A DNA stretch of 64,000 nucleotides from Prevotellamassilia timonensis (GTDB taxonomy: Bacteria; Bacteroidota; Bacteroidia; Bacteroidales; Bacteroidaceae), in assembly GCF_900106785.1 (NCBI RefSeq), contig NZ_LT629841.1, positions 119,266-183,265 on the forward strand, read 5' to 3'. Made by a program: the position numbers and the translations under genes. Numbering within the stretch: the stretch's first letter is position 1; every line of letters begins with the position of its first letter. This document shows positions 225 to 38,846 of this stretch, piece by piece. Below the pieces are notes generated by a model, which worked only from the letters and a program-made list of their open reading frames with translations, did not search any database and was not told the origin of the DNA.

Positions 225-299
225 TAGGGACGATCGGGCTCGAACCGATGACCTCTGCAATGTGACTGCAGCGCTCTAAACCAACTGGGCTACGCCCCT
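225..299 (-). tRNA. tRNA-Val (anticodon CAC)
   Basis: On the minus strand the sequence folds as a cloverleaf. The acceptor arms AGGGGCG and CGTCCCT pair over seven positions with one G-U. The D-loop is AGTTGGTTTA, the anticodon stem is CTGCA/TGCAG around loop GTCACAT, and the T-arm is ATCGG-TTCGAGC-CCGAT. The anticodon read from the loop is CAC (valine, GUG codons). The D-stem has one C-A mismatch. CCA is not encoded, so it must be added enzymatically. The gene lies downstream of the lipoprotein gene on the same strand. Confidence 0.9.
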
Positions 300-7283: not shown

Positions 7284-7594
7284 TAGGGTGTTCAAAATCG
7301 GCATCAAAAATGAAATCGTTTTTGGGAATTCTATTCGTTGTTGTTGCTATTCGGTGAAAAGTAAACATGCGAACGGACTCAAGCACAAAACGCTACCTCT
7401 AATGGGGGCGACGCGTCTCGCGTCGGGAAAAGATGCAGCTATTATTTAGTAGAGGTTAGTATTTCCCTCCCTTCTCTATTCCGACGCGGGACGCGTCGCC
7501 CCCATTAGTGCTAGCGTTTTTTACAGCGCGTTTCAGGCAACTTAAAATGCCTCAAAAACAGTCGCGTTTTTGATGCCGATTTTGAACACCCTAC
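7284..7594. repeat. Nested inverted repeat enclosing family A copy 2
   Basis: A 28-base sequence at 7284-7311 (GTAGGGTGTTCAAAATCGGC...) has a perfect reverse complement at 7567-7594. The family A element (7400-7507) and its flanks sit between the two arms. The outer arms connect to family B-like sequence on the right. The arrangement reads as one element inserted into another. Confidence 0.8.
7400..7507. repeat. Family A inverted-repeat element, copy 2
   Basis: The arms TAATGGGGGCGACGCG... at 7400-7426 and its complement at 7481-7507 (one base change in the central triplet) surround a ~54 bp core. The core AAAAGATGCAGCTATT..TTCTCTATTC is homologous to the cores of the copies at 23.7 and 31.1 kb. 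The whole element, not only the ends, is therefore conserved. Confidence 0.88.
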
Positions 7595-7887: not shown

Positions 7888-10800
7888 CTACTTCATCAAC
7901 TTGGCAGTATGGCTCTTGCCGTCTGCCGTCTGTACGGTGATGTAGTACACACCCTCGGCATAGCGCGACATGTCAATGCGCTCTGTGTCGGGTGCGGGGT
8001 TCTGGTTGATGTACAACAGCTGGCCATTGGTGGCGTGAATGGTGATAAGACGCATGGCCGGACCATTGGTGCTTGCTGTCACGTGCGTCTTGACGCGACG
8101 TGGCATAATGTTCACCTGAGGAGCCTCAGCATCTGTCACACCTGTCGCAGTGAGCAGCTCTATGGCAAACGGCTCGTTGAGCGTACCAATCATGGCATTG
8201 TCAACATAAGTCAGAGCAGCGTTGGTTGAACGCACCTGCCCATTGTGTGCCACGCGCACATCAAGTTGCGGTCCATTGCCATCGCCACTGATGGTTATGA
8301 AATACAAACCATCAATTTCGACCGATGTACCACGGCACTCGTCGTCAGCAAACACGCCTATCTCGGCACCACTTACGGGTTGGCCGCCTTGCGTGATGCG
8401 TGCTATCACCGTCATGTTGTTGGGATAAGCATGGCGGTCAACAGGCGGGAAGGCCGACTGCACCTCGTCACTATTGGCAGCCTTGCCACCGTACGCCTCG
8501 CCATCATTGGCTACCATGCGGCGCGCCTTGCTGGCAGGAGCGGCAGTAGGATAACCAAACTGGCGGCTGTCATCAGCTGCGCTGAAGTATATGTAGCCCT
8601 GTCCGGGTTCCATAACCTCGAGCGAACCTATCCACTCATAGTCCTGATACATGGCAAATCCGTTTTGGCCCTTCACAATATCACCCGTAACGGGTGCCGC
8701 AGGTGCCAGGGCATAGAGCGGCGATGCGGCGTAAGTGGGCGTGTAGCCGAGCCATGTCCAGCCCTTGTTCAGTGTAACAGGCGTGGTGGCAGTATTCACC
8801 TGCTCGCCCTTCACGCTGAAGTCAGCGGGCTGCTCCATATAGAGCATGTACATTTCCTTCACATTGAGCTTGTCAAGGCCACCCGTCCAGACCAGACTGT
8901 CGGCAGCGGGCACTGCAAACTGCGTCTGGTTCTTGAGCATGCGGGCTGTTGCAGCCACGGGGGCAAAGGTGCCGGCCACGGTGGCATCAACTGGCGTCAC
9001 GCTGAACGACAGCCACTGCCAGCCCTGATGCAGACTGAACTGCTGCTCTACGGCGTTCGTAGCATTAAGCACATACGGCTTCGTTACGCTGCCGTACACA
9101 GCATTGGCGCTGAAGGTCACCTTGTCAGCGGTTGCAACCACCGGGTGTACCTTGCCCGTAGCGGCATGCCATGCCTTGAAGCTCACAGGCGAGCCTGGCT
9201 CGTCGGAGTTGCCATAAATGGTAAGCATGGCAAAGTAGCAGTCGTAGCGCTTGTTGTAGACGGGCGAAGCCACACCCACACAAGTGCCCTTGGCATTGAA
9301 TGCTGCCACAAGGTCGGCGCCATTCTCCGACGGCACACCGTTGAATTGCAACTGGGCCACCATGCTCATGTTCATGTCATACTTAGCAGCATCAACACGC
9401 CAGTCAGGCTGCTGTCCTGTCACAGTGAGCTGCACGTGCAGCGGCTGTGCCACACCCTGGTTGCCAGTGAGGTAGAGCGTTGCCTCATAGCGGCCTGCTG
9501 CCACCGACGCGGGCACTGTCAGGCGCAACTTGGCTGTGCCAAGGGGCTTGAGCTGTCCGCTCTCGGTATTGAGCGTGAGCCATGAGGGCAATCCGCTGAT
9601 AGTCCATGCCTCGGCGGCGCTGCTGTTGTTCACAATCTCAACCTCGGTGGTGAGTTTGTCGGCCTGTTGCTTGGCAAGCGTCAACTGGCTGTCGCCCCAG
9701 AGCAACTGGTTCTGCTGCACATAAGCCGTCCAGCTGATGGGGTCGGCCAAGTTGTTGTTCACATCGCGTATGCCACGCAGCGTAAAGTTGACGGTGCAAC
9801 CCTCGAGCGCAGCGGCCGATTCGTTAAGGGTGATAACCACCTTGCGCTCCGATGCGGTAAAGTTGAATGCCACATTGCTGAGCTTGGGAGCAGCCTTCAA
9901 CCCGGGAGCCTCATCGCCAATGGCAGCCGAGCCATAGAGCTTGGCCTCGTGCGGCTTGGGCAGCGTGGTGGTGGCATGGTCAGCCATGTCGGCCACCACT
10001 TCGGCCTGACTGTACTGGTTGAGCTGTATCTTCTCAAACGGATAGTAGGCCACCAGTCCGCTCTCGGTGCCTTCGAGGCGCTGCAAGCGTGCGGCGCGCA
10101 GCACATCAGCAGTAAGGCGGGCATTCCACAGGCGCAACTCGTCAAGCTGACCGTTGAAGTAATTGCTGTACACAAAGTCGGCAGCCCCCGCAGTCTGTGC
10201 GCGGCGCATCACGCCAAGCATCAGGCTGTCGCTCTGCAAGCGGAGCGGAGCGCTGGGTGTAAACTGTGCCACATTGTTACCGTCAACGTAGACAGCTGCC
10301 GTGCCATCGTGCAGCACGTTCAGTGCAAAGTGGTGCCATTGGTTGTCAAGGCAGTCAGCTGTGCCAGTGGCCAGCATCTGGTCGTTCTGGCTCAGTTGCA
10401 GCTGGCCTTGGGCATTGAAAGCAGCCATCACGCCATCGACATGGGTGCTGAAAAGCGTAGCCTGCTTGCCTGCCTCGGGCTTGCTGCCCTTAAACCACAG
10501 TTCGAGGGCATAATCCTCGTCGGTGGCGGGTGAGCATGAGGTCAGGTCAATGGCAGCATAATCGGTTGTACCGTTCAGGCTGATGGCCTTGTTGGGCGTA
10601 GCCATATACCACGAGGCGGCAGGCAGCGTGATGTGGCGCGAGCGGGCCACATCGTTGGCTGTAGTGCCAGTGCCCTCGTTGAGCGGCCAGTAGCCAGCTA
10701 TGTCGGCAGAGTTGGCCTGCTTGGTCGTGTACATGTCGGCCTTGGCCTCGGCGTATGAGCGGGCAGCGTTCCACAGGGTGAGTTCCTGCATGGCGCCCTT

Positions 10801-13800
10801 CATTCCGCCACCTATGCGCAGCGGGCCATTGCCGTTGTAGGCGGGCACGGGCTGCGATGCAAACAGACTGGCGTCGGTGTCATCGTAAGCACAGTCGGCA
10901 GTGAGTGTGCCGCCCTGGCTGGCGGGCGCATAGCTGAGTGCGAGGTAGGTCCACTTGTCCTTGGGCAGTGTGCCTTCCGACGTCACCTTGGTGCCGGCCA
11001 CATCGGCCGTGAGGTGACCCTCGTCGTCAACCGACAGGGTAAACTTGGTAGCTGCTGCGCCATGGCTCAGTATCTGGCCGGCGCCAGTGTAGTTGAGCCA
11101 CATGTTAAGGGCGAACGGACGTGCGGCCAAGTCGATGTCGGCCTCGGTTTGTGCACCCTCGGCACCTGTGAGTTGCAGGGCCACATCGTGGTCAACCTTC
11201 GAGCCGTTGAGCTTGCTGGTCACCACAAAGTTCTCGGTCCTGATAAGGCTTGATGCCTTGATGTCCTCGTTGAAGGTGATTGACACTTCACCTTCGGGGG
11301 TGAGCACACCGTTGGCGGGCGACGGGTTGCCCAACAGTTTGGGGCGCGCCACGTCTTTCACCACTTCAATGGTCTCACTCTCATTGTTCACCTCGCCACT
11401 GCCAAAGTCGCACATGGTGATGGCGCGCAGTTCGTAGGTCTGGTCGGGGAAGAGTGCGTTGTTGCCCATGTCGAGCACATAGGTGGTCGATGCACCGCTG
11501 ATAAGCTGGTTGTTGTCGGTAAGGTCGGCCTCATCGTTGACAAACTCCTTGGCCAACTGCCAGTCTACATCGCGGGCGCCCTTGTACTGTATGCGGAAGC
11601 CCTTGAACGAACGGAAGTTGCGGTCGTAGCGGCTTACCACCATCTTGAGCTGGCTGCCGGTGTTGCAGTTCACCACGCGGTCGGGCACGCTGAGCATGAT
11701 GTCGGAACAGCTGGGCACAAACTGGGCCGAAATGGCCACGGTGTCGGCTATTACCGGGAATGACCCTGTGGGGTCGCTCTGACACTGCGAGCGCAGGGCG
11801 AGCTTGATGTTGTTGTACTCCAGCACGCTCTGGTCGGTTTGTGTGAGTTGCAGCTGCTTGCGCAGGGTGTTGCCAGCCGGCACCAGGAACACGCGGCCGT
11901 CGGTCAGTGCCTGGCCGTCGATGCTGAGCTTGGCGCCATTGGGGTTGGTTTCGTCGAGCATAGAGAGCTGGAACCACACGTCCTCACCCGTCTCGCTGTC
12001 GTTCTGCATGAGCAGGGTAAAGTTAGCGGTACCGCCTGAGGGCACATCGGTGGCATAGTTATTCTCCACATTGAGTTTGGGCACTTCTATCTGCATGGTA
12101 GCGGCCGATATCTCGGTGCCTGGCTCATAGTACTTGCTCACATACTTGTCCTCATAGGGGCAGCAGGTTTGTCCGCCACGGGTTATGAAGATGGGGCCGA
12201 AACCGTCGGGGGCATTGAACACGTCTACCGACAGGGCATCGTCGTCGCCATTCTCCTTGAGCGTATAGCCAATGGTCTTGGCGTTCTCCGAGCTTGAGCC
12301 TTGCACAAAGGTGTTGCGGGTGCCTGTGGTGGTCTTCACCGTGAGGTCGACACCTGTGCCGTTTATCTCAAATCCGGTAGTCACACCGCCCACTATCATC
12401 ACCTCAAACTCCTCGCTGGTTTCGTGGCTCTTGGCCTCGATGGTGCCTACCGAGTTCTCGATGGTGGCACCGGCGTCGAACGAGTAGTTGCTTATGAGGT
12501 ATTCTGTGCGGCTGCTCTTGGCCTCAATTTTGGCCTTCTCGTTGTTGGCCAGGGTCTGTGTCCAAAGCGCCATTTGCGAATTGTACCACTTCACCTTGTC
12601 CTCAAAGGCTATGGGCTTGCCATTGCTGTCGGTGGTCTTGGCGGGGAGCATCATGGTGTAGCTCGGCCCATCAAGCTTGTCGCCCGACACGGCGGCAGCG
12701 CCCCACACGTCCTTGTCGTTGTTGTTCGAACCAAAGCGCGGATCGTCCTTGCTCACCTTCGACACATACACCACCTCGTTGGTCGTGTTGCTGGTAATGC
12801 CCTCTGAGGGGTCGTGCAGCAAACTGTTGCGCACGCTTTCGAGGTTGGGCAGCAGGGTGTTCTCCACATAGTTCTGCGAGTAGTTGAACCCTGTGCCAAA
12901 CTCCATGCCGGTTGATATAACGTTCTCGCGGGTCACGCCAAAGCCGCCCTTGCCGTCGGGACGTATGTCCACGCTGCGGGCATTGCCAAACAAAATGTTG
13001 GTGGCGGTACCTATAAACACGTCGCCGTTGGCGCCCACATAGTCCTCCTCGTCAGACGTGCTCACGCGGTTGGTCGTAGTGGTGGTGGTAGAGCTTGCCT
13101 GACTGTCGGTAATGTCGAGGTTGACCTCGGCACCCACTTCAAGGTCGGCCTTGGTCGATGCTTCGGTTATGACACCTGCACCCACGCCCACCCAAGTGGC
13201 GGCCTCGAAACCGAGCTTGGTGAGGGTGCTCACCTCGTTATTGGTTACAAACGAACCGGCGTACGAGGTGCTTTCGGTCACAGAGGTGGCTGTCTCATAA
13301 TAGGCGTTTGAGTTTGAACCCGGGGGGTCGCGCAGCACCATGAGCACCTTGTCGGGGCCTGATGTCACAAAGTTGTTGCCCGACGGCAGTTCGCCAAGCA
13401 CAATGGCCTTGAAAGTGCCGTTGCCGCTCCACTGCTTTTGTGCGCCATTCACGTCGAACACCATGTTAAGCCCCAGAGTGTACGGTTCTGTGATGTTGGG
13501 GAAACCTGCCATAAAGGTGTATTCGGCATGGCCGAGCGAGTCGAGCTGCAACTGGTTGGTGGCCAAGTTGTTCTCGTCCTTAAACTTGCCGTCATCGGCA
13601 CCTTCAAAGTTCACCACCTGTCCGGCAGCAAACTGGTTGGTGATGGTGACAGTTGACTGCTGCAACGGTACACGGTCGGTGACGGGATTTTGGGCATCGT
13701 CCTGGTTGACGTACTGCTCGTAGCCGTCGAGGGTGAAGGTGTAGCGGCGCAACTGGGTGAACACCGGGGCACCCATGGCATAGGTCACTGTGCCCTGCTC

Positions 13801-16800
13801 GTCGGTGGTGTAGAGCGGCACTTCCTGGCCCTTGGGGTCGCTGAGTGTCACGTACTTGAAGGTGGCGTCGCCAAAGGCCGGAGCACCCTTCTGCTTGACA
13901 TCGAATGTCGGCTCCACGCGGTGGGCCAAGTTGAGCGATGCCACATAGCTGAAGCGTTGCACAATGCCCTTGTCGGTGGTGACGGAGTCGGTCTTGACGG
14001 CCAGCGGATTGCTGGCGTCGATGCCAGGAATGGTGGCGCGGTCGAACACAATCTCGGCGTTTGACGGCACCTCGACACTGGTCACCTTGTACTGCACGGG
14101 GGGCACCAGGGCGGCAAACTCGCCTGTGGCGGGGTCGGTGGTGATGGTGATGGTTTTTACGGCATCGTCATCGCCGCCACCCACCTGGGCGGTGCTCTTC
14201 ACCTGCTTGCTTGCTGCTTCATAGTTGCGGGCGTCGGTGGCGTTTTCGTAGGTGTAAGCACCACCATTGTCTTTGCGCACCACATTCATGCGATAGGCAT
14301 CGCCTGCGCTGAGCTTTATCACGGCCTGGCCAATGTTGGCCTTGCTCTGTGCCAAACCAAGGGGCTTGCCCTTTTCAACGTCGCCACCTGCCACACGGCC
14401 GGCTATTACGACTTTGGTCACATCGGTAAAGTTCACCGCCTCTTCCTTCACAAAGGTGTAGCGTGTGCCAACGCCCTTGTCGTCGGCGGGGAAACGGCCT
14501 GCCGAGGCAAACTCGTGGCCCTGCTTCTTTATCTGTATAAAGTGGTCGCCAATGGGCACACTGATGCTGAAGCGGCCCTCGCTGTCGCTGGTGATGGGTT
14601 CGCCGTCCTTATAGCAAATGTTGCCGTCTACATAGAAGTTGCAACCCTCCACCGGATAGGTGGTGCCTTCGTACAACACCTGGCCTGTGACGGGGAAGCT
14701 TGAGGTATCCTCAAAGTCAACGCCATTGTGGTTGATTGAGTTCTGGCTGACGTAGCGCGAGAGCTTCTGTGGTGTAAAGCTGTGTACGCCCTTGCTTGGC
14801 ACAACCGAGTAGTTGGTGCCGCTGCCGGTAAATGGCACACCTTTTATCACATAGTTGCCCTCGGCATCGGTGCGGCCGTAAATGCTGAATGCATCGTCGG
14901 GGGGCACAATGGTGCTGATGCTGTTCGACGACTTGATGGTGCCGTGATGGCCATTGGCCACGCCGCCAGTCTTGCTGTAGTCGTAAGCGGTGGTCTGATT
15001 GGTAATGCCCTCGTCGAGCGGCCAGTACAGATAGAGGTCTTTCTCGTCGCCCGAGAGCTGGTGGTCGTAGGTGGCTGTCAACTCGGCATCGGCAAGGACT
15101 TTGTTCCACAAGCGCACCTCGTCGATGTAGCCGTTGAAGTTGTAACTTGCCAAATCGCTCACATTCGTACCAAAGGCCAGGTTGTAAAGCTTCTTTCTGT
15201 TTTCCTTGGGCATGCCCGTGGCCTTGGTCTCAAACTTCTGCATCTTGCCCTTGGTGTCGATGGCGCGCAGGGTCCAATTAGCGGCGCCGTCGGTTGACAG
15301 GGCTATGGCATAATAGTTGTTGGGCTCGAGCATCACCGTGGTGGGTGTGTCGGCATACTTGTTAGGTGTAGGCAGGCGCAACGTCAGCTGGTAGGCACCG
15401 CTGCTGGTACGCTTGCCAAACAGTGAGAAGTTGTCGTAAGTGTCAATCAGCATGGGCGTTGCATCTTTGGTTGCATTGCCCGACTCCTTGATGTTGTCGT
15501 CGAGGCGGAACCATGCCTGCATGGTGAGGGGTACACTGTCCATAAACAGGGCACCGGCCTCCTCACGGTCGAGGGGCAGCACAAGGCCACCGCCCACATT
15601 GTCTACACGCAATGAGTAGAACTGCGATTTGGCCTCGGCATCGTCCTTGGCCTGCACCAAATTGACACGCACGCCCTCAACGGCCGTACCTGTGCCATAG
15701 GCTATGCGGCCGGCTATGGTGCCGGTGGCCTGGCAAAAGCCGTTGTCGGTGGCCTCGGCGGTTTGAGTGCTGTTGCCATTACAGTTTATGTACGACGACA
15801 CGCGGTATTCGTAGTACTGGCCGGGGGCCACATTGTTGTCGTCGAAAGTGTACATCTCCGAGGTGCCCGACACGGTGTGTATGTCGCTCCAGTTGCCCTT
15901 GCTGCCAAGCATACGACGTGCCACCACATAACGGGTGTTGCCCTCAGATATTTGCTGGGCGTTCCAGGTGAGCTTGACACTGTTGCTGTACAGGCCCTTG
16001 CTCACGTTTAACGATGCCACACGGCTGCTGCCGCTGATGGAGCCTACGGCAATGGGCGACTCAAAGGTCTTGCCAAAGGCTTTCAGCGCAACCTTGAACT
16101 CGTAAGAGTCGCACACATTCTTGATGCCAGTGTACTCGTATTCGCCCGAGGTGGCATTCACATCGGTGCGGGGCACGCTCACGGGGTTGCTCCACTGGGT
16201 TGTGCCGGCCAAACGGCTGTACACAAGGAAACTCTGCTCGCTGTTTCTGAAAGCACCATAGTTCCAAGTCACCACCACGCTCTGCTCTTCAGAACGGGTG
16301 TCCACCTTGTCAAATACGAACGACGGCACTATCTTGGTCGTCACTGTGGCCTTGAGGTCGTCTACTATGCCTTCCTTCCACCCGTCCTTTTGGTAGGTGA
16401 CGATATACACATATTCGGTTTCAAGGCTCGGCACTTCCACCTCGCAGTTGTTGGTGTTATAGTCAACGGTAGCGATGAGCTTGGCCGAACTTGCCGACTC
16501 GCCTTGCTTGTAGCGGTACACCAGCCACTTGTCTTTATCGCTGCTCAAGCGGGTGTCACCCTTGGTGTTCCAAGTCAGCTTTACGGTTTTGGTCCACTGT
16601 TTGGGTTCTGCACTCAAATTGCCCGGGTACGGACAACCGGGCACGGTGACTGACCAAATGGTGCCGTTGTTGTAACGCTGGAACACACTGTTCTTGTTGT
16701 CGTGGATGGGATCTACCACACTACCCTCGCCAATATTCATCACGGCACTCCATGCGCCCCAATAGTAGATGGTGACGGCATCGCGGTTGCTGAACGTGCC

Positions 16801-17628
16801 GTCGAGCGTCTTGGTCACGCTGGTGGCATTGTCGGCCGCATACACCGAACCATACTTGAGGGAAGTATACGACCTTGAATTGTTGAAATAGTAGGTGGGC
16901 GCGAAACCCCAGGCTTTCTTATTCGGCAGCTTCGAAGCATTGAATGTAATTTTGCCTGCGGCACTGCGCACAAAACTGCCCTTATTGGTTTGGGACTCGT
17001 TGATGGCCGAGCCGGCAGTGAAGTTCAAGTACACGTCTATGTTGTCGGGGTCGTCGCCATTGTCATTGTTGTCCCAACAACCCACGAACCTGATGCCACG
17101 CAACTTGCCCTTGCCGTCAGGGGTGCCTTCACCCTCGAGCAATTTCTTTGAAGGGTAAAAGCGGGCGTAGACAGTACGCTTTTTGCCGTTCATCACGTCC
17201 TTTACAATGGTAAGGCGGCCATACGCTTCGTTGTGACGCACCAGCTTGTCATGACAACGGGGCATTTCGCCCACCAATATGTCATTGTAAACGGGGAAAT
17301 TTTTTATAAGCGGCGAAATAGTTCTGTACTCAACGAATTCATTCGCATATATTCTGATTCTACGCATGGCATCAGGCTTGCTGTTATCCTTGTCGTAGTC
17401 CATGTAACGGAATTCGATGTACGGACGTGCCTCGCTCAAGGCAATATTGTCAATACATATTGTCTTGGCTACATCTTTGGGGTCGGTGTTTGCCCTCACC
17501 ACCTGCGGCACAAGACCCCAGGTCATGAGCAACACGCCCAACATGAGCAGCCACCGGCCCAATAGGGGCGGAGGAGGCACTTTCTTCGCTACCCGCTGAT
17601 GGGGTAATCGTGTAAAGTGTGTGTGCAT
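7888..17628 (-). CDS. Giant secreted LamG/FnIII multidomain surface protein, 3246 aa
   Basis: This is a very large exported protein, probably carried to the cell surface by the type IX secretion system. The first ~46 residues (basic start, GRWLLMLGVLLMTWGLVPQVVRA) form the signal peptide. Three fibronectin type III-like repeats span about 334-630. A LamG/concanavalin-like fold lies at 695-875 (IDEVRLWNKVL), and a carboxypeptidase-regulatory-like domain at 976-1045. A bacterial Ig-like segment lies near 2093-2145, and two more LamG domains at about 2153-2310 and 2346-2506 (LDELRLWNARL). The last ~75 residues (MRLITIHATNGQLLY..VYYITVQTADGKS..LMK) are a T9SS type A sorting domain. The central ~1200-1900 region is of unknown fold. 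The role is probably adhesion or binding of glycans or host proteins; the ligand is unknown. The frame is intact over 9.7 kb, and a strong promoter lies upstream. Confidence 0.9.
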   Translation of the reverse strand: MHTHFTRLPHQRVAKKVPPPPLLGRWLLMLGVLLMTWGLVPQVVRANTDPKDVAKTICIDNIALSEARPYIEFRYMDYDKDNSKPDAMRRIRIYANEFVEYRTISPLIKNFPVYNDILVGEMPRCHDKLVRHNEAYGRLTIVKDVMNGKKRTVYARFYPSKKLLEGEGTPDGKGKLRGIRFVGCWDNNDNGDDPDNIDVYLNFTAGSAINESQTNKGSFVRSAAGKITFNASKLPNKKAWGFAPTYYFNNSRSYTSLKYGSVYAADNATSVTKTLDGTFSNRDAVTIYYWGAWSAVMNIGEGSVVDPIHDNKNSVFQRYNNGTIWSVTVPGCPYPGNLSAEPKQWTKTVKLTWNTKGDTRLSSDKDKWLVYRYKQGESASSAKLIATVDYNTNNCEVEVPSLETEYVYIVTYQKDGWKEGIVDDLKATVTTKIVPSFVFDKVDTRSEEQSVVVTWNYGAFRNSEQSFLVYSRLAGTTQWSNPVSVPRTDVNATSGEYEYTGIKNVCDSYEFKVALKAFGKTFESPIAVGSISGSSRVASLNVSKGLYSNSVKLTWNAQQISEGNTRYVVARRMLGSKGNWSDIHTVSGTSEMYTFDDNNVAPGQYYEYRVSSYINCNGNSTQTAEATDNGFCQATGTIAGRIAYGTGTAVEGVRVNLVQAKDDAEAKSQFYSLRVDNVGGGLVLPLDREEAGALFMDSVPLTMQAWFRLDDNIKESGNATKDATPMLIDTYDNFSLFGKRTSSGAYQLTLRLPTPNKYADTPTTVMLEPNNYYAIALSTDGAANWTLRAIDTKGKMQKFETKATGMPKENRKKLYNLAFGTNVSDLASYNFNGYIDEVRLWNKVLADAELTATYDHQLSGDEKDLYLYWPLDEGITNQTTAYDYSKTGGVANGHHGTIKSSNSISTIVPPDDAFSIYGRTDAEGNYVIKGVPFTGSGTNYSVVPSKGVHSFTPQKLSRYVSQNSINHNGVDFEDTSSFPVTGQVLYEGTTYPVEGCNFYVDGNICYKDGEPITSDSEGRFSISVPIGDHFIQIKKQGHEFASAGRFPADDKGVGTRYTFVKEEAVNFTDVTKVVIAGRVAGGDVEKGKPLGLAQSKANIGQAVIKLSAGDAYRMNVVRKDNGGAYTYENATDARNYEAASKQVKSTAQVGGGDDDAVKTITITTDPATGEFAALVPPVQYKVTSVEVPSNAEIVFDRATIPGIDASNPLAVKTDSVTTDKGIVQRFSYVASLNLAHRVEPTFDVKQKGAPAFGDATFKYVTLSDPKGQEVPLYTTDEQGTVTYAMGAPVFTQLRRYTFTLDGYEQYVNQDDAQNPVTDRVPLQQSTVTITNQFAAGQVVNFEGADDGKFKDENNLATNQLQLDSLGHAEYTFMAGFPNITEPYTLGLNMVFDVNGAQKQWSGNGTFKAIVLGELPSGNNFVTSGPDKVLMVLRDPPGSNSNAYYETATSVTESTSYAGSFVTNNEVSTLTKLGFEAATWVGVGAGVITEASTKADLEVGAEVNLDITDSQASSTTTTTTNRVSTSDEEDYVGANGDVFIGTATNILFGNARSVDIRPDGKGGFGVTRENVISTGMEFGTGFNYSQNYVENTLLPNLESVRNSLLHDPSEGITSNTTNEVVYVSKVSKDDPRFGSNNNDKDVWGAAAVSGDKLDGPSYTMMLPAKTTDSNGKPIAFEDKVKWYNSQMALWTQTLANNEKAKIEAKSSRTEYLISNYSFDAGATIENSVGTIEAKSHETSEEFEVMIVGGVTTGFEINGTGVDLTVKTTTGTRNTFVQGSSSENAKTIGYTLKENGDDDALSVDVFNAPDGFGPIFITRGGQTCCPYEDKYVSKYYEPGTEISAATMQIEVPKLNVENNYATDVPSGGTANFTLLMQNDSETGEDVWFQLSMLDETNPNGAKLSIDGQALTDGRVFLVPAGNTLRKQLQLTQTDQSVLEYNNIKLALRSQCQSDPTGSFPVIADTVAISAQFVPSCSDIMLSVPDRVVNCNTGSQLKMVVSRYDRNFRSFKGFRIQYKGARDVDWQLAKEFVNDEADLTDNNQLISGASTTYVLDMGNNALFPDQTYELRAITMCDFGSGEVNNESETIEVVKDVARPKLLGNPSPANGVLTPEGEVSITFNEDIKASSLIRTENFVVTSKLNGSKVDHDVALQLTGAEGAQTEADIDLAARPFALNMWLNYTGAGQILSHGAAATKFTLSVDDEGHLTADVAGTKVTSEGTLPKDKWTYLALSYAPASQGGTLTADCAYDDTDASLFASQPVPAYNGNGPLRIGGGMKGAMQELTLWNAARSYAEAKADMYTTKQANSADIAGYWPLNEGTGTTANDVARSRHITLPAASWYMATPNKAISLNGTTDYAAIDLTSCSPATDEDYALELWFKGSKPEAGKQATLFSTHVDGVMAAFNAQGQLQLSQNDQMLATGTADCLDNQWHHFALNVLHDGTAAVYVDGNNVAQFTPSAPLRLQSDSLMLGVMRRAQTAGAADFVYSNYFNGQLDELRLWNARLTADVLRAARLQRLEGTESGLVAYYPFEKIQLNQYSQAEVVADMADHATTTLPKPHEAKLYGSAAIGDEAPGLKAAPKLSNVAFNFTASERKVVITLNESAAALEGCTVNFTLRGIRDVNNNLADPISWTAYVQQNQLLWGDSQLTLAKQQADKLTTEVEIVNNSSAAEAWTISGLPSWLTLNTESGQLKPLGTAKLRLTVPASVAAGRYEATLYLTGNQGVAQPLHVQLTVTGQQPDWRVDAAKYDMNMSMVAQLQFNGVPSENGADLVAAFNAKGTCVGVASPVYNKRYDCYFAMLTIYGNSDEPGSPVSFKAWHAATGKVHPVVATADKVTFSANAVYGSVTKPYVLNATNAVEQQFSLHQGWQWLSFSVTPVDATVAGTFAPVAATARMLKNQTQFAVPAADSLVWTGGLDKLNVKEMYMLYMEQPADFSVKGEQVNTATTPVTLNKGWTWLGYTPTYAASPLYALAPAAPVTGDIVKGQNGFAMYQDYEWIGSLEVMEPGQGYIYFSAADDSRQFGYPTAAPASKARRMVANDGEAYGGKAANSDEVQSAFPPVDRHAYPNNMTVIARITQGGQPVSGAEIGVFADDECRGTSVEIDGLYFITISGDGNGPQLDVRVAHNGQVRSTNAALTYVDNAMIGTLNEPFAIELLTATGVTDAEAPQVNIMPRRVKTHVTASTNGPAMRLITIHATNGQLLYINQNPAPDTERIDMSRYAEGVYYITVQTADGKSHTAKLMK

Positions 17629-17835: not shown

Positions 17836-18345
17836 TTGCACTTTGCACCCCTCATCAGCACGTTTACACGCTTTTTACCTACATCTTACACTTTTTGCCT
17901 GCACTGCGCTGATTTTCAATGCTTTACGGAGTGTATGTTACGCTGCACTGTGCCTACACCCCCTTTGCACACTACCTACACACCCTTTGCACTGCCTGCA
18001 CGGCGGTTGTTCACGCCTTGCACTGATTGTTTTTTCGACAATGGTGGGCAGCAAAAACGCTTGCGGCAGGTAGAATCACCAGTCGGAGCAACTGATAATT
18101 CTACCTGCCGCAAGCGTTATAACGCGCTGGCACAGGTGCCAATATGTTGGGTGCAGACAATGCCGTGCTGTCAGTGCAGGGGGGTGTGCAAGATGCACAT
18201 AGAGCGTGTGGGTAGTGTGTAGGTGGTGTGCAGATAGTGTGTAGGTAGTGTGCAGTTTTACCTACACTCTGTAACGCGCTGATAATCAGCGCAGTGCAGG
18301 CAAAAAGTGTAAGATGCAGGCAAAAACGTCACTTTTCACTTTATA
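17836..18345. repeat. Family C long inverted repeat, copy 1
   Basis: The left arm (about 17858-17960, CTTACACTTTTTGCCTGCACTGCGCTGATT...) is matched in inverted orientation by the right arm (about 18245-18345, with GCTGATTATCAGC and TGCAGGCAAAAAGTGTAAG). The space between holds TAGTGTGTAGGTAGTGTGCAG tandem units and the CGGAGC-loop hairpin at 18056-18118. A second copy is at 36.1-36.6 kb. Confidence 0.8.
18056..18118. repeat. Hairpin with conserved CGGAGC loop (family E), copy 1
   Basis: AACGCTTGCGGCAGGTAGAAT (18056-18076) pairs perfectly with its complement at 18098-18118. Inside, AGT/ACT pairs close an apical loop CGGAGCA. A second hairpin at 55.97 kb shares GGTAGAA/TTCTACC and the CGGAGC loop, but its outer stem has a different sequence that is equally well paired. 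Confidence 0.8.
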
Positions 18346-18368
18346 GGGGGGTACACAAACGCTACCTC

Positions 18369-18920
18369 TAATGGGGGCGACGCGTCCCGCGTCGGTGCAA
18401 CTCAAGCGCTAACCGCTAACGCGGAAAACATAAGAACAGAAGGACATAAGAACAGAAGATATCGCGTTCGTGTTAGCCGCTTACCGCGGGAAACATAAGA
18501 ACAGAAGTTTACATAAGAAACATATAAGGCCGCTGCGCGGCTGACGGCCACGGACTAACGTCCGGGTGGCCTCAAAAAACATAAGGGCTGACGCCGTAGC
18601 GGGGCGGGGCAGCCGCTAACGCGGGAAACAGAAGGACAGAAGAACATAAGGACATAAGGGCTGACGCCGTAGCGTTACAAGTAGTAACGCTACGGCGTCA
18701 GCCCTTATGTTTCTTGAGGCCACCCGGACGTTAGTCCGTGGCCTTCAGCCGCGCAGCGGCCTTATGTGTTTCTTATGTAAACCTATGTTCCTTATGTTTT
18801 CCGCGCTAAGCGGCTAACACGAACGTTATCTTCTGTTCTTATGTCCTTATGTTCTTATGTTTTCCGCGTTAGCGGTTAGCGCTTGAGTTGCACCGACGCG
18901 AGACGCGTCGCCCCCATTAG
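18369..18920. repeat. Family A arms around a family D long palindrome, copy 1
   Basis: The family A arms (18369-18395 and 18894-18920) lie at the ends of a ~550 bp imperfect palindrome. Its modules mirror each other: CCGCTAACGCGG, tandem ACATAAGA/ACATAAGG octamers, GGCCGCTGCGCGGC, GGCCACGGACTAACGTCC, and a perfect 21 bp central hairpin starting GGGCTGACGCCGTAGCGTTAC (18658-18704). The left half is about 70 bp longer because it carries an extra module set. No open reading frame is credible here. Confidence 0.85.
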
Positions 18921-18991
18921 AGCTTGCGTTTCTTCAAGCGCAAAAGCTTGCGTCTCTTCAAGCACAAAACACCACCAACAAACGCTACCTC

Positions 18992-19019
18992 TAATGGGGG
19001 CGACGCGTCCCGCGTCGGA
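18992..19019. repeat. Solitary family A arm
   Basis: One TAATGGGGGCGACGCGTCCC..CGCGTCGG arm without an inverted partner nearby, between the family D palindrome and the 3' end of the AraC-type gene. It is preceded by AAACGCTACC, as in other copies. Confidence 0.8.
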
Positions 19020-19057: not shown

Positions 19058-20197
19058 CTACGCTATCTGCCCGTCACGCCACTCGCGGGGCGTCATGCCC
19101 GTGCGGTCGCTGAATATCTTGTACAACTGGCTGCGCGATGTAAAGCCACAGGCCGACGACACACTCTCGTTGGTGTACTCGGGGTGCGCCTTGATGTAGT
19201 CCTGCGCCTCCTTAAAACGTATGTCGCTCAACCAAATGCGGAAGGTGGTGTGCAAATGCTGGTCGAAATAGATGCTGAGGGTGCGGCGCACCACACCTAT
19301 GCTCTGCGAGAGTTTGACCATGTTGACGGTAGTGTCGCGAAAGTTCTTTTCGGCACACCACGCAGCAAGGGCGGCCTCGACAACACACACCATTTCGGGT
19401 GACAACCGCTCGGGGACGGCATTGCCTGATGCCAGCTCATCGGCGTCACCATCGGCCATTGACTGTGCGTCGTCGGCCTCGTCGTCGGCCACATCGGTCA
19501 GCACCTCGTCGATGGGGGCAAGGTTGTAGCCCATGGCCACAAAACTCATGTTGAAGATGACGGCGGAGAGCAACACGGCCGGCCCTACAACAAAGAGCAG
19601 CGGACGCCACATGATGGCACCCACAAGGGCAAGCGAGGTGCAGCTAAACAGCAGGTAGCCCGCCCACGTGTAGCGCACATAGGGCATGATGTCGCCACCC
19701 GTTTCGGCCTCTACCCTACTCCTGTTACGGTGTATCACGCTAATGGGTATGAAAATGCTCGCGATCATGGACACCAAATAGAGGGTGTGCAACACCATTT
19801 GCTCATAGGGCATGTACAGACTGTTGCATGTAAGCCACCCGCTGCCAAACGCAACGAGTGTGGCCACAAACAATGTGACGAACAACAGGTCGTAGCGACG
19901 GCGCCGACGCTTTTCGCACTCGAGGTTGAGTATGGAATGGGACACCAGGAAGGCGACGGGGGTGTAGAACAGTATGTTTACTATCACACCGGCATCGTCG
20001 CTGTGAGCTCTGAAGCCGTAGACCATTTGCAAGCCATAGTGTATCACCAGCAGCAGGGCGGCAGTCACGAGCGACCAGCGCGACTTTTCGTACTGGCGGT
20101 TGACTACGGACACCTGAAAGCGTGACACGACAAGCACGAGTGTTTGCATGGCAAACACTAACAGACAGGTGTATTGTAATAGAAATAATGATGACAT
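19058..20197 (-). CDS. Membrane-anchored AraC-family transcriptional regulator
   Basis: This 379-residue protein joins an integral-membrane sensor to a DNA-binding domain. Seven hydrophobic segments are visible at about residues 3-25, 42-62, 70-90, 104-122, 133-153, 174-195 and 197-223. A very acidic linker (DEVLTDVADDEADDAQ...) follows. The C-terminal ~105 residues are an AraC helix-turn-helix pair: FRIWLSDIRFKEAQDYI and ACGFTSRSQLYKIFSDRTGMTPREWR, which fits the family signature. Such 7TM-AraC proteins are frequent in Bacteroidales. The signal sensed is unknown. The promoter overlaps a 30-bp direct repeat (20279-20340), so self-regulation is plausible. Its target could include the adjacent small-peptide/secreted-protein pair, but that is inference from position. 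Confidence 0.88.
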   Translation of the reverse strand: MSSLFLLQYTCLLVFAMQTLVLVVSRFQVSVVNRQYEKSRWSLVTAALLLVIHYGLQMVYGFRAHSDDAGVIVNILFYTPVAFLVSHSILNLECEKRRRRRYDLLFVTLFVATLVAFGSGWLTCNSLYMPYEQMVLHTLYLVSMIASIFIPISVIHRNRSRVEAETGGDIMPYVRYTWAGYLLFSCTSLALVGAIMWRPLLFVVGPAVLLSAVIFNMSFVAMGYNLAPIDEVLTDVADDEADDAQSMADGDADELASGNAVPERLSPEMVCVVEAALAAWCAEKNFRDTTVNMVKLSQSIGVVRRTLSIYFDQHLHTTFRIWLSDIRFKEAQDYIKAHPEYTNESVSSACGFTSRSQLYKIFSDRTGMTPREWRDGQIA

Positions 20198-20453: not shown

Positions 20454-20640
20454 CTAAACGCTAACACAAAACGCTAATTCTAAACACAAGTACAAAACGC
20501 AAGCACTAAACGCAAACACAAAACGCAAGCTCTAATGGGGGCGACGCGTCTCGCGTCGGGAAAATTAAAGCAAAAGCTCACAGATAGAAGCCTAATTAGT
20601 GCTCATTTTTCCCGACGCGAGACGCGTCGCCCCCATTAGA
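20454..20640. repeat. Family A inverted-repeat element, copy 3, with direct repeats
   Basis: Direct repeats of AAACGCAAGCAC/AAACGCTAACAC type (20454-20531) precede the arms at 20532-20559 and 20611-20639. The core AAAATTAAAGCAAAAGCTCACAG... matches the reverse complement of the copy 1 core with an internal deletion. Copies 1 and 3 are therefore one subfamily. Confidence 0.85.
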
Positions 20641-23640: not shown

Positions 23641-23840
23641 AAGCACAGAACGCAAGCACAGAACGCAAGCACACAACGCAAGCACACAACGCAAGCACTA
23701 ATGGGGGCGACGCGTCTCGCGTCGGGAAAAGATGTGGCTATTTATTTAGTAGAGTTTGTATCTTCCTCCTTTCTCTATCCCGACGCGAGACGCGTCGCCC
23801 CCATTAGTGCTTGCGTTGGGTGCTTGAGTCCATTCGTATG
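23634..23840. repeat. Family A inverted-repeat element, copy 4, with direct repeats
   Basis: Six AACGCAAGCACA-type direct repeats (23636-23698) lead into arms at 23699-23725 and 23779-23806. The core GATGTGGCTATTTATTTAG...TTCTCTATCC is homologous to the cores of copies 2 and 5. The right flank TTGAGTCCATTCGTATGTTTACG also recurs beside copies 2, 5 and 6, so the conserved unit is wider than the arms. Confidence 0.87.
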
Positions 23841-23939: not shown

Positions 23940-23993
23940 AAAAAAAGGGCTGACGCCGTAGCGTTACAATTTGCAACGCTGCGGCATCAGCCC
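23940..23993 (-). terminator. Terminator of the GH2 gene built from a family D hairpin
   Basis: On the minus strand GGGCTGATGCCGCAGCGTT pairs with AACGCTACGGCGTCAGCCC (two compensable changes), directly followed by TTTTTTTGTG. The stem is the same module that forms the centres of the family D palindromes at 18.68 and 28.77 kb. It lies 79 bases after the GH2 stop codon. Confidence 0.8.
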
Positions 23994-28540: not shown

Positions 28541-28985
28541 TTAATGGGCTAACGCCGTAGCGGGGCTTGGCAGCCGCTAACGCGGGAGACAGAAGAACAT
28601 AAGAACATAAGGACATAAGGGCTGACGCCGAGGCTTTTGAAGCGCTTACCGCGGGAACATAAGGACATAAGGACATAAGAACATAAGGACATAAGGCCGC
28701 TGCGCGGCTGACGGCCACGGACTGACGTCCGGGTGGCCTCAAGAAACATAAGGGCTGACGCCGTAGCGGTACTATATGTAACGCTACGGCGTCAGCCCTT
28801 ATGTCCTTATGTTCTTATGTTCTTTTGTTTACCGCGTTAGCGGCTGCCAAGCCACGCTACGGCGTCAGCCCTTATGTTTCTTGAGGCCACCCGGACGTAG
28901 TCCGTGGCCGTCCGCCGCGCAGCGGCCTTATATGTTTCTTATGTAGCTTATGTTCTTATGTTCCCGCGGTAAGCGTTACAAAGCC
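28541..28985. repeat. Family D long palindrome, copy 2
   Basis: A palindrome of about 440 bp is centred near 28775, where GGGCTGACGCCGTAGCG (28752-28768) faces its complement (28782-28798). Outward on both sides are ACATAAGG/ACATAAGA octamers, GGCCGCTGCGCGGC, GGCCACGGACT..GTCCGGGTGGCC and CCGCTAACGCGG modules. Order and spacing on the two sides are not identical, so several alternative folds are possible. It sits between gyrB (3' side) and the tRNA-Leu gene. Confidence 0.85.
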
Positions 28986-29015
28986 GCGCAGCGGCGTCAG
29001 CGCACGCGCAGCCCG

Positions 29016-30992
<1,977 letters not shown>

Positions 30993-31122: not shown

Positions 31123-31285
31123 TAATGGGGGCGACGCGTCCCGCGTCGGAAAAAGATGCAGCTACTTATTTCGCAGAGCTTGTTTTCACCTTTCTCTGTC
31201 CCCGACGCGAGACGCATCGCCCCCATTAGTGCTTGCGTTTGGTGCTTGCGTTTAGTGCTTGCGTTTGGTGATTGCGTTTATCGCA
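31123..31285. repeat. Family A inverted-repeat element, copy 5, with direct repeats
   Basis: The arms (31123-31149; 31202-31230 with one changed base, GACGCATCG) surround a core GATGCAGCTACTTATTTCG..TTCTCTGTCC homologous to copies 2 and 4. TTGGTGCTTGCG-type direct repeats follow (31231-31280). The flank CATTCGCATGTCTACGTTTAAC at about 31347-31368 matches the outer flank of the other copies. Confidence 0.87.
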
Positions 31286-36679: not shown

Positions 36680-36870
36680 ACTAAACGCTAACACTAATGG
36701 GGGCGACGCGTCTCGCGTCGGGGAAATGCAAGAGCACTAACTCCACGCCTGTTTGGGTGCCTTTGCCTTAATGCCCGACGCGAGACGCGTCGCCCCCATT
36801 AGTGGTAGCGTTTGGTGCTTGCGTATAGTGCTTGCATTTGGTGGTAGCGTTTAGTGCTTGCGTATAGTGC
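36680..36870. repeat. Family A inverted-repeat element, copy 6, with direct repeats
   Basis: The arms at 36695-36722 and 36774-36802 enclose a ~50 bp core (GGAAATGCAAGAGCACTAACTCC...) unlike the other two core types. Direct repeats of CGTTTGGTGCTTG type follow (36803-36868), and then the common flank TCGTTCGCATATTTACATTT. Confidence 0.85.
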
Positions 36871-37781: not shown

Positions 37782-38430
37782 TGTTGGAGAGTTGTGATAT
37801 TTGCCGATAATATTCGCCGCTAATATTTGCTGCTAATATTTGCCGCTAACGCGGAAAACATAAGAACATAAGGACATAAGAACATAAGACCAAATGTGCT
37901 TCAAGACGTACGGGCATGGACTGCGTCCATATGCCCTCAAGAACATAAGAGCTACGCCGTAGCGTTTCATGCAGTAGATCTTATGTTCTTTTGTTCTTAT
38001 GGTTCCGCGTTAGCGGATAAAGCCTGTATGGGGAAAAGTGGTGTTTCATTGTTCGTGAGTTGTGATATTTGCCGCTAACATTTGCCGCTAACGCGGGAAA
38101 CATAAGAACATAAGGACATAAGAACATAAGTGATGCAAGACATACGGGCATGGACTCCGTCCATATGCCCTCAAGAACATAAGGGCTACGCCGTTAAGAC
38201 CTTGAGCGATATATAAGGAAGCAATAGCATGAAACGCTACGGCGTAGCCCTTATGTTCTTGAGGGCACATGGACGCAGTCCATGCCCGTACGTCTTGAAG
38301 CACATTTGGTCTTATGTTCTTATGTCCTTATGTTCTTATGTTTTCCGCGTTAGCGGATTGTTATAAACAGGGCTACGCCGTAGCGTTTAATGCTATTGGT
38401 CTTTTGTTCTTATGGTTCCGCGTTAGCGGA
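37774..38430. repeat. Family D long palindrome, copy 3, with internal duplication
   Basis: The block CCGCTAACGCGGAAAACATA... continuing through TACGGGCATGGACTGCGTCC (about 37846-37953) has an almost exact inverted copy at about 38248-38358. A direct, diverged copy runs from 38037. That direct copy begins with GTGGTGTTTCATTG, the same as the start of the barrel gene at 37772, so gene-start sequence was duplicated together with the repeat. CCGCTAACGCGG modules and ACATAAGA octamers are as in copies 1 and 2, but the GGCATGGAC arm module is specific to this copy. Confidence 0.82.
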
Positions 38431-38441
38431 TAACTATAGAC

Positions 38442-38846
38442 CTATAAACTATATTTGTCATAAGTGCCACGTGACAAGCCCTGGCGATATTTGCGCTTTA
38501 TTTTTATCTTTTCGCCCCAGAAATTTATCAATAGGCCGGTATCTAATCGTGATGCTTTCAAATAATTGACTAATTGCATTTCATGTCGTTCTGTCAAATC
38601 GCCAACTGTTTTTAACTCAAGTATCAAACAGTCCTCGACTAACACATCCACCTTAAACAGACCAATCTCACTGCCATCATCATAAATTACCCTTATGGGA
38701 ACTTCTTTCTCCGCACTGAGACCAACTTTGCGCAACTCTATAAGAAGAGCTTCCTGATAGACGCTCTCTAAAAAGCCCTCACCAAGATAACGACGCACTT
38801 TAACAGCACAATTTACAGTTTCTTTGACAATTTCCTCAATGTCCAT
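38442..38846 (-). CDS. GxxExxY family protein, 134 aa
   Basis: The defining motif appears as GEGFLESVYQEAL (residues 22-34). It is followed by a PD-(D/E)xK-like core: LFKVDVLVEDCLILELKTV, with Asp, Glu and Lys in the expected spacing, and a C-terminal LLINFWGEKIKIKR. Proteins of this family are small nuclease-fold proteins of unproven function. They occur as stand-alone genes and in rRNA intervening sequences. The gene is A+T-rich and starts eight bases after the DEAD-box helicase stop, so it is probably on the same transcript. A family D palindrome follows directly. It looks like an acquired cassette inserted between the helicase gene and the repeats. Confidence 0.88.
   Translation of the reverse strand: MDIEEIVKETVNCAVKVRRYLGEGFLESVYQEALLIELRKVGLSAEKEVPIRVIYDDGSEIGLFKVDVLVEDCLILELKTVGDLTERHEMQLVNYLKASRLDTGLLINFWGEKIKIKRKYRQGLSRGTYDKYSL

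Follow-up and report, generated by a model that had tools for sequence, protein, structure and literature searches.

A near-palindrome in Prevotellamassilia timonensis probably consists of two nested families of non-coding mobile-type repeats

Our results suggest that the near-palindrome of the window (the whole stretch of 64,000 nucleotides of Prevotellamassilia timonensis DNA that was analysed) is probably a nest of two non-coding mobile-type families, with a REPIN-type doublet of a repeat here called E on the outside and, on the inside, an element of about 457 bp made up of a long unit (L), a short unit (S), a centre and an inverted long unit (L'), which we refer to as the octamer element. 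For the caps, the inverted pairing, the copy number, the absence in 57 congeners and the presence of five doublets at a transposase gene are all observed. In the literature, bacterial REPINs are short doublets of hairpins whose spacers are small; the RAYT-linked family reported here, which has about 470 half-units and was found in one of the 58 genomes of the genus, has some loops that hold far longer palindromes.

The near-palindrome spans positions 18357-18931 of the window in the output of a repeat finder, which divides it into outer inverted arms (18357-18464/18824-18931; 108 nt, 95% complementary), middle arms (18465-18499/18791-18825; 94%) and inner arms (18499-18601/18688-18790; 95%), the two arms as a whole differing at about 5% of positions. 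The left cap (18355-18395, +) consists of the end of a 13-mer repeat and an E arm whose core, 18369-18395, is TAATGGGGGCGACGCGTCCCGCGTCGG. A 17-bp linker (18396-18412, +) leads from the E arm to the octamer element, which begins with L (18413-18601, +). The module order in L is a CCGCTAACGCGG hairpin, ACAKAAGR octamers, a second hairpin, GGCCGCTGCGCGGC, GGCCACGGAC..GTCCGGGTGGCC, an octamer and GGGCTGACGCCGTAGCG. There follow an 11-bp spacer with S (together 18602-18674, +; S is 18613-18674), a 13-bp centre (18675-18687), L' (18688-18875, -), the mirrored linker (18876-18892, -) and the right cap with the E' arm core (18893-18919, -). An earlier note on this DNA had described modules in mirrored order around a centre and a left half that is longer by an extra module set. 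Both observations are borne out, the extra set being the 11-bp spacer and the 62-bp unit S, and the arms extend slightly beyond the bounds given there. The central perfect hairpin, put at 21 bp in that note, is actually an inverted repeat of 27 bp with a 5-nt loop (18652-18710, no strand; arms 18652-18678/18684-18710). As in that note, the palindrome lies between a giant surface-protein gene and a regulator gene, in a 1429-bp intergenic gap flanked by ORF 7888-17628(-), of 3246 aa with Laminin_G_3 and a T9SS sorting domain, and by the AraC-type ORF 19058-20197(-). A sorting domain of the T9SS kind is in keeping with a host from the Bacteroidota. The same gap holds a further 28-nt inverted repeat at 18056-18118 (93% complementary, 7-nt loop) and a third E half-unit (18992-19018, +), and 18978-19018 is identical to 18355-18395 over 41 nt. 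We considered this direct repeat as an integration scar and rejected it, near-identical E variants being found elsewhere.

The core of the palindrome (18413-18875) is one of eight copies of the octamer element and not a singleton. Searched against its own genome, the 701-bp region gave 187 matches, with both strands matched at each site, and the octamer-pair pattern ACAKAAGRACAKAAGR gave 82 + 93 = 175 overlapping matches, against 0 for the reversed control; at least 43 distinct sites with the octamer-module family were tallied by hand. The arrays are unevenly spread, with hand tallies of at least 12 on the 164-kb contig C11 (2.0 expected, a six-fold excess), and they are scarce on the 1.23-Mb contig C17 (at least 4; 15.2 expected). 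Twenty-seven stretches, the window and 26 fetched ones, were cut into units running from CCGCTAACGCGG (module A) to GGGCTGACGCCGTAGCG (module B), which yielded 72 A-to-B units in 39 clusters. Where neighbouring units are inverted, 19 junctions converge at B and one diverges, with a gap of 185 bp. Eight clusters share the layout L - 11 bp - S - 13 bp - L' with fixed spacings, L being 178-190 bp long (shortened to 123 in one copy) and S 54 or 62 bp. These copies are spread over contigs C11, C13 and C15 and stand four in each orientation (the window, L020 and two in L026 versus L019, L022, L024 and L034); the L034 copy has one additional L' behind. When aligned, the eight copies have a mean column identity of 91%. 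Their outer flanks often carry additional mirrored layers composed of B, GCTAAT-type repeats and E caps, and the 900-bp flanks are, with the exception of one pair, unlike each other beyond E and octamer modules. A false foldback introduced by assembly is extremely improbable: arrays do lie within about 650 bp of three contig edges (the end of C13, that of C16 and the start of C6), but the element is present in eight collinear copies that are not identical, lie on three contigs and mostly have unlike flanks, and these copies, together with arms that differ from each other to the extent given above, argue against such an artefact.

The exception is formed by L019:2446-2902 and L026:7963-8357, whose right flanks are 83% identical over about 700 bp abutting the element (from L019:2903 and L026:8358). 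Relative to this common flank, S lies on opposite sides of the centre in the two copies. This could reflect duplication of the site together with an inversion of the core, or else two insertions beside copies of one repeat. The two copies may be a single duplicated site, and a core that inverts between its own arms could explain the two orientations of the element. Because the eight copies are collinear and occupy seven or eight unlike places, we infer dispersal as a unit: the octamer element, with its inverted arms, would have spread whole and then been truncated or recombined at many sites.

The earlier note had attributed the longer half to growth by unequal gain at the locus. The extra short unit is present in eight copies, four per orientation, with the same 11- and 13-bp spacings, and it therefore arrived with the element, which makes the longer half a trait of the family and no local gain. 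More generally, one could imagine a palindromic satellite that grew in place without transposition, slippage and template switching in hairpins extending one arm and the extension being copied to the other. This would be in keeping with the octamer number, which differs among copies, with the tandem short repeats in the outer arms of E and other palindromes here, and with the likeness of arms within an array: in 11 inverted pairs, same-array arms are more alike than long units generally (0.924 vs 0.878), and none of 20,000 label permutations gave a value as high. We nevertheless consider in-place growth quite unlikely, as one asymmetric layout of about 457 bp, with fixed spacings and in both orientations, could hardly have arisen by independent growth in eight copies, and as in three of the 11 pairs (L020, L026:2363 and L034:2159/2432) each arm comes no higher than 11th when the 37 units are ranked by likeness to the other arm. 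Arm homogenisation is partial. The closer arms on average fit some gene conversion, as invoked in the earlier note, but the likeness does not hold in every array. Under the preferred reading of dispersal as a unit, both arm-to-arm conversion and exchange among sites seem to operate.

Three other features of the window, none assigned a strand, belong to the same module set. A second octamer-element array (28546-28996) is separated by 20 bp from the end of gyrB (ORF 29016-30974, -), divergent octamer-type arrays of simpler units (37843-38429) lie 13 bp from ORF 38442-38846(-), and a solo B-B' palindrome (GGGCTGACGCCGTAGCGTTAC..., 23947-23993) is the simplest of the set. The B pattern has 54 + 45 matches in its own genome and none in 57 congeners. 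Exact octamer pairs occur in two of the 58 genomes of the genus, and octamer triples in seven of 301 sampled genomes of the family, this genome having 67 matches and the other six 1-3 apiece. When 84,980 species were scanned for three octamers matching exactly, 34 stretches were obtained, which indicates that the octamer by itself is more widespread than the element of about 457 bp; 21 of these stretches are titled Muribaculaceae, Prevotella, Prevotellaceae, Segatella, Bacteroidaceae or Bacteroidales. The region had no match in plasmid and phage collections. A string search of a literature collection found no match for ACATAAGAACATAAG, two E strings or the B string, and found the A string once, in an enterovirus paper. 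When the element was compared with MITEs, terminal inverted repeats were present, with arms of about 188 bp in seven copies and one arm shortened in the eighth; the outer linkers are mirrored, and hence the ends could not be fixed when target-site duplications were sought. The families searched genome-wide for an autonomous relative were Y1_Tnp and REP_Tyr_transpos.

The caps, called family A in the earlier note, are arms of E (TAATGGGGGCGACGCGTCYCGCGTCGG), which has 235 + 239 = 474 matches with up to three mismatches in its own genome. The reversed control gave 0 matches, as did E in the 57 congeners, in a genus in which only 19 of the 58 genomes combine a completeness of at least 90% with a contamination of at most 5%. 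In the stretches read, all 37 pairs of E neighbours within 200 bp are inverted (+- 27, -+ 10, same strand 0). The window has six further E-E' pairs, without assigned strand, at 1601-1730 (REPIN-type; 76-nt loop with an inner hairpin), 7400-7507 (54-nt loop), 20533-20638 (52 nt), 23699-23806 (54 nt), 31123-31228 (52 nt) and 36695-36801 (53 nt). Read by eye, the hairpin of E is CGACGCG-TCY-CGCGTCG. Its core contains no GTAG tag of classical REPs, and E also falls outside the definition of CGTC-tagged REPs (a terminal CGTC, a stem of 8-9 bp starting with AT pairs and a CCA-like tail). Judged by these sequence features, E would be REPIN-type and set apart from the classical GTAG REP; Bacteroidetes subclass 2.6 is reported to have 'atypical' structures. 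Its inverted doublets at high copy number are one of the features of a REPIN, and together with the E pairs around the transposase gene described below they make it most likely that the caps are a REPIN, which the genome's own RAYT-like transposase would replicate as a hairpin unit. Exact E was also present in two viral-classified contigs (L167 and L168) of one other IMG source, which means that E is not strictly limited to its own genome. At L168:1-150 (IMGVR_UViG_2788500337_000004) an E arm stands after about eight tandem 13-mers (AACGCTACAACTA).

A profile search of the genome found a single gene matching both the Y1_Tnp and the REP-associated transposase models, located at C15:260773-261390 (L079:1399-2019) on the minus strand and encoding 206 aa. 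The protein scores 69.5 bits with NCBIfam NF047646, under the curated cut-off of 80, 29.4 with the IS200 model, and 32.2 with Pfam Y1_Tnp, over the cut-off of 23. It has the HUH motif NHVH and the tyrosine motif YIARNP (YIxxNP), and H112/H114 (HUH) and Y172, which we take to be the catalytic tyrosine, are invariant in four aligned homologues. An AlphaFold2 model (mean pLDDT 75.9, pTM 0.66) has as its best PDB match 4er8, a RAYT with a bound REP hairpin (Foldseek E 1.7e-6, with a TM of only 0.43/0.53); the sequence itself matched nothing among PDB chains at E 0.001. Five E-E' pairs flank the gene within about 1.5 kb, two on one side and three on the other. Counting the 474 matches as 237 pairs, 0.1 pairs are expected in 1.5 kb (Poisson P ~9e-8), but E pairs also cluster without a RAYT, with four at C6:73314-73985, which makes the clustering at the gene less special than this value implies. 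By analogy with RAYTs elsewhere, the E doublet would be copied by this single transposase through single-stranded hairpin intermediates. Homologues of the protein with 31-42% identity are found at six places in five other congeners, and strong inverted repeats with sequences other than E lie near all six, on both sides in L144, L146, L147 and L149 and mainly on one side in L145 and L148, a similar inverted repeat being present in both L146 and L148. Two congener sbcD loci used as a small control each have one weak inverted pair (18-19 nt, 79-89%). Such repeats are expected if RAYTs keep their own repeats. In two of these congeners a RAYT-like Y1_Tnp domain stands in frame within an MmeI-type restriction-modification ORF, L146:256-3048(-) in G054 and L148:589-3090(+) in G012, between the methyltransferase and target-recognition domains. 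L144 (G017) also has its RAYT-like domain within a long open frame. In the literature collection searched, no paper has both 'REP-associated tyrosine transposase' and 'MmeI'.

It might be asked whether this RAYT, or a related one, also gave rise to the octamer element as a REPIN-type product, which would make the element a long diverged relative of E; we regard this as unlikely. A TAATGGG..GACGC head is common to E and some B modules, but it is short and occurs in 8 of 92 exact B cores; such a short head does not support a claim of kinship between E and B. One congener, G003, has a RAYT-like gene (1456-1956, -) between inverted octamer repeats (L111:1240-2170), but other inverted repeats, GGACGCAC..GTGCGTCC, lie nearer to that gene. 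The 3.2-kb RAYT locus of the P. timonensis genome contains no octamer pair, so that nothing links the inner element to its RAYT. Among 43 RAYT/Y1_Tnp loci, including a few duplicates, octamer pairs adjoin only that of G003, which appears again as G084, the two being apparently one genome. The idea that octamers are a RAYT signature across genomes was dropped: an NF047646 match was present in 13 of 13 octamer genomes, but all of these had been chosen by their octamers, without a matched control, and only one of the 13 matches exceeded the cut-off.

The nesting of the two families is seen in the loops between E and E'. Loops of 38-122 nt separate 27 of 30 pairs and the other three are 390, 497 and 514 nt long, loop-type frequencies being biased by the set read, namely the window, 26 octamer-match stretches, the RAYT locus and five picked stretches. 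Several loops of 76-88 nt have an inner hairpin. The 497-nt loop is the window palindrome with its octamer element. In the 390-nt loop (L024:2141-2584) the cap junction is as in the window and collinear on both sides (91% and 88%), and the interior is different. The 514-nt loop (L150:269-836), in a stretch chosen for its long E spacing, contains an unrelated nested palindrome with layers of its own and arms 78 nt (90%) and 70 nt (97%) long, lying between recognisable ends of an ordinary E loop. Only two E-capped octamer arrays are known; the same cap junction at the second site suggests that the E-capped composite was probably copied whole, as one unit. The core of the octamer element occupies the position of the REPIN spacer, which is normally about 40-120 nt. 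No empty site for the composite was found, and the E-capped copies bear no trace of the usual REPIN spacer.

As RNA, the palindrome is predicted by folding to form the long hairpin proposed in the earlier note (-478.1 kcal/mol vs -189.4 +/- 6.5 for 100 dinucleotide shuffles, z = -44.6). This very strong predicted fold might suggest a structured RNA, such as a stabiliser of the 3' UTR, a terminator or a small RNA, kept by selection for the long hairpin. Each of the three repeat clusters of the window does end near the 3' end of an ORF, at distances of 51, 20 and 13 bp, and a co-directional setting is rarer for arrays (15 of 34 whose two neighbours were called) than for window gaps over 100 bp (15 of 20, with 3 between 3' ends and 2 between 5' ends). 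However, both-sided changes affect only 3 of 182 consensus pairs in the eight sequences, and the covariation term (+9.28) is a penalty; compensatory change was accordingly rejected as a sign of RNA structure, and selection on a long-hairpin RNA is not supported by the sequence comparison. Nor are the arrays confined to 3' ends: by a longest-ORF heuristic, which has 9 of the 37 arrays overlapping an ORF call (by no more than 91 bp in 7 of them), 15 lie between co-directional ORFs, 11 between 3' ends and 8 between 5' ends, and 3 have one side unknown. No Rfam family reaches its gathering score at the palindrome, the element is missing from congeners, and in G003 the octamer palindromes have T runs before and A runs after them, the opposite of an intrinsic terminator. 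We therefore consider a selected RNA very unlikely, and neither covariation nor gene context pointed to a cellular function of the element. In the window as a whole, only a SAM-II riboswitch (143-202, -) and two tRNAs, one at 225-299 (-), reach the Rfam gathering score, and no class is prominent among short perfect hairpins with 4-nt loops, in a list made without a shuffle control.

Insertion sequences encode a transposase, and Porphyromonas, the host of one of the systems compared here, belongs to the Bacteroidales. The closest likeness of E is to the REPINs or BIMEs of RAYTs (Bertels & Rainey 2011, PMC3116915; PMC6006769; PMC8049555), which share with E the inverted doublets, the hundreds of copies, the single-copy RAYT-like gene surrounded by repeats and the absence of the repeat from searched congeners; unlike them, E has no GTAG in its core, and some of its loops hold palindromes, including the element of about 460 bp. 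REPs inside larger palindromes (PMC3733652) resemble our case in that repeated palindromes of one family lie within those of another, but there REP dimers are guests in host palindromes of, for example, 41 bp, whereas here the REPIN-type doublet is the host and the guest is far longer. The BrickBuilt minisatellite of Porphyromonas gingivalis, which lies within a MITE and has 19 copies in one strain (PMC4596501), is likewise intergenic with tandem short repeats and inverted ends; it has a 23-nt tandem unit and small inverted ends, in contrast to the 8-nt tandems, GC-rich hairpins and inverted arms of about 188 bp of the octamer element. Finally, insertion sequences that target REPs (PMC1525189) are also second elements inserting in a REP, but the octamer element is non-coding.

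An SbcD gene lies at C11:44690-45463 (167.9 bits, above the cut-off), and SbcD is encoded in 44 of the 58 genomes of the genus. Proteins of the SbcD family act on palindromic hairpins in E. coli. The asymmetric S amounts to an 86-bp interruption between the long arms, which may make the long palindrome tolerable beside SbcD. Nine clusters have two facing full-length long units; S stands between them in seven and an interruption of 90 or 135 bp in two, and none of the nine is a plain L-13 bp-L' palindrome. These interruptions would fit the rule (PMC7999016) that spacers lessen the hazard of palindromes. We tentatively speculate, as a doubtful though conceivable extension, that REPINs serve as vehicles, the RAYT copying a REPIN with a palindrome-filled loop, loops being both landing sites and cargo bays, and the asymmetry of the cargo permitting survival beside SbcCD. 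The nests would then resemble nested dolls, with E around the octamer element, E around the L150 palindrome and B around A around B. Movement of the composites as units would mean that RAYTs are able to spread cargo other than REPs. Natural near-palindromes of about 460 bp with one conserved interruption also offer a system for studying cellular tolerance. The sbcD gene itself and a canonical copy of the octamer element, L020:2032-2474, are about 700 bp apart.
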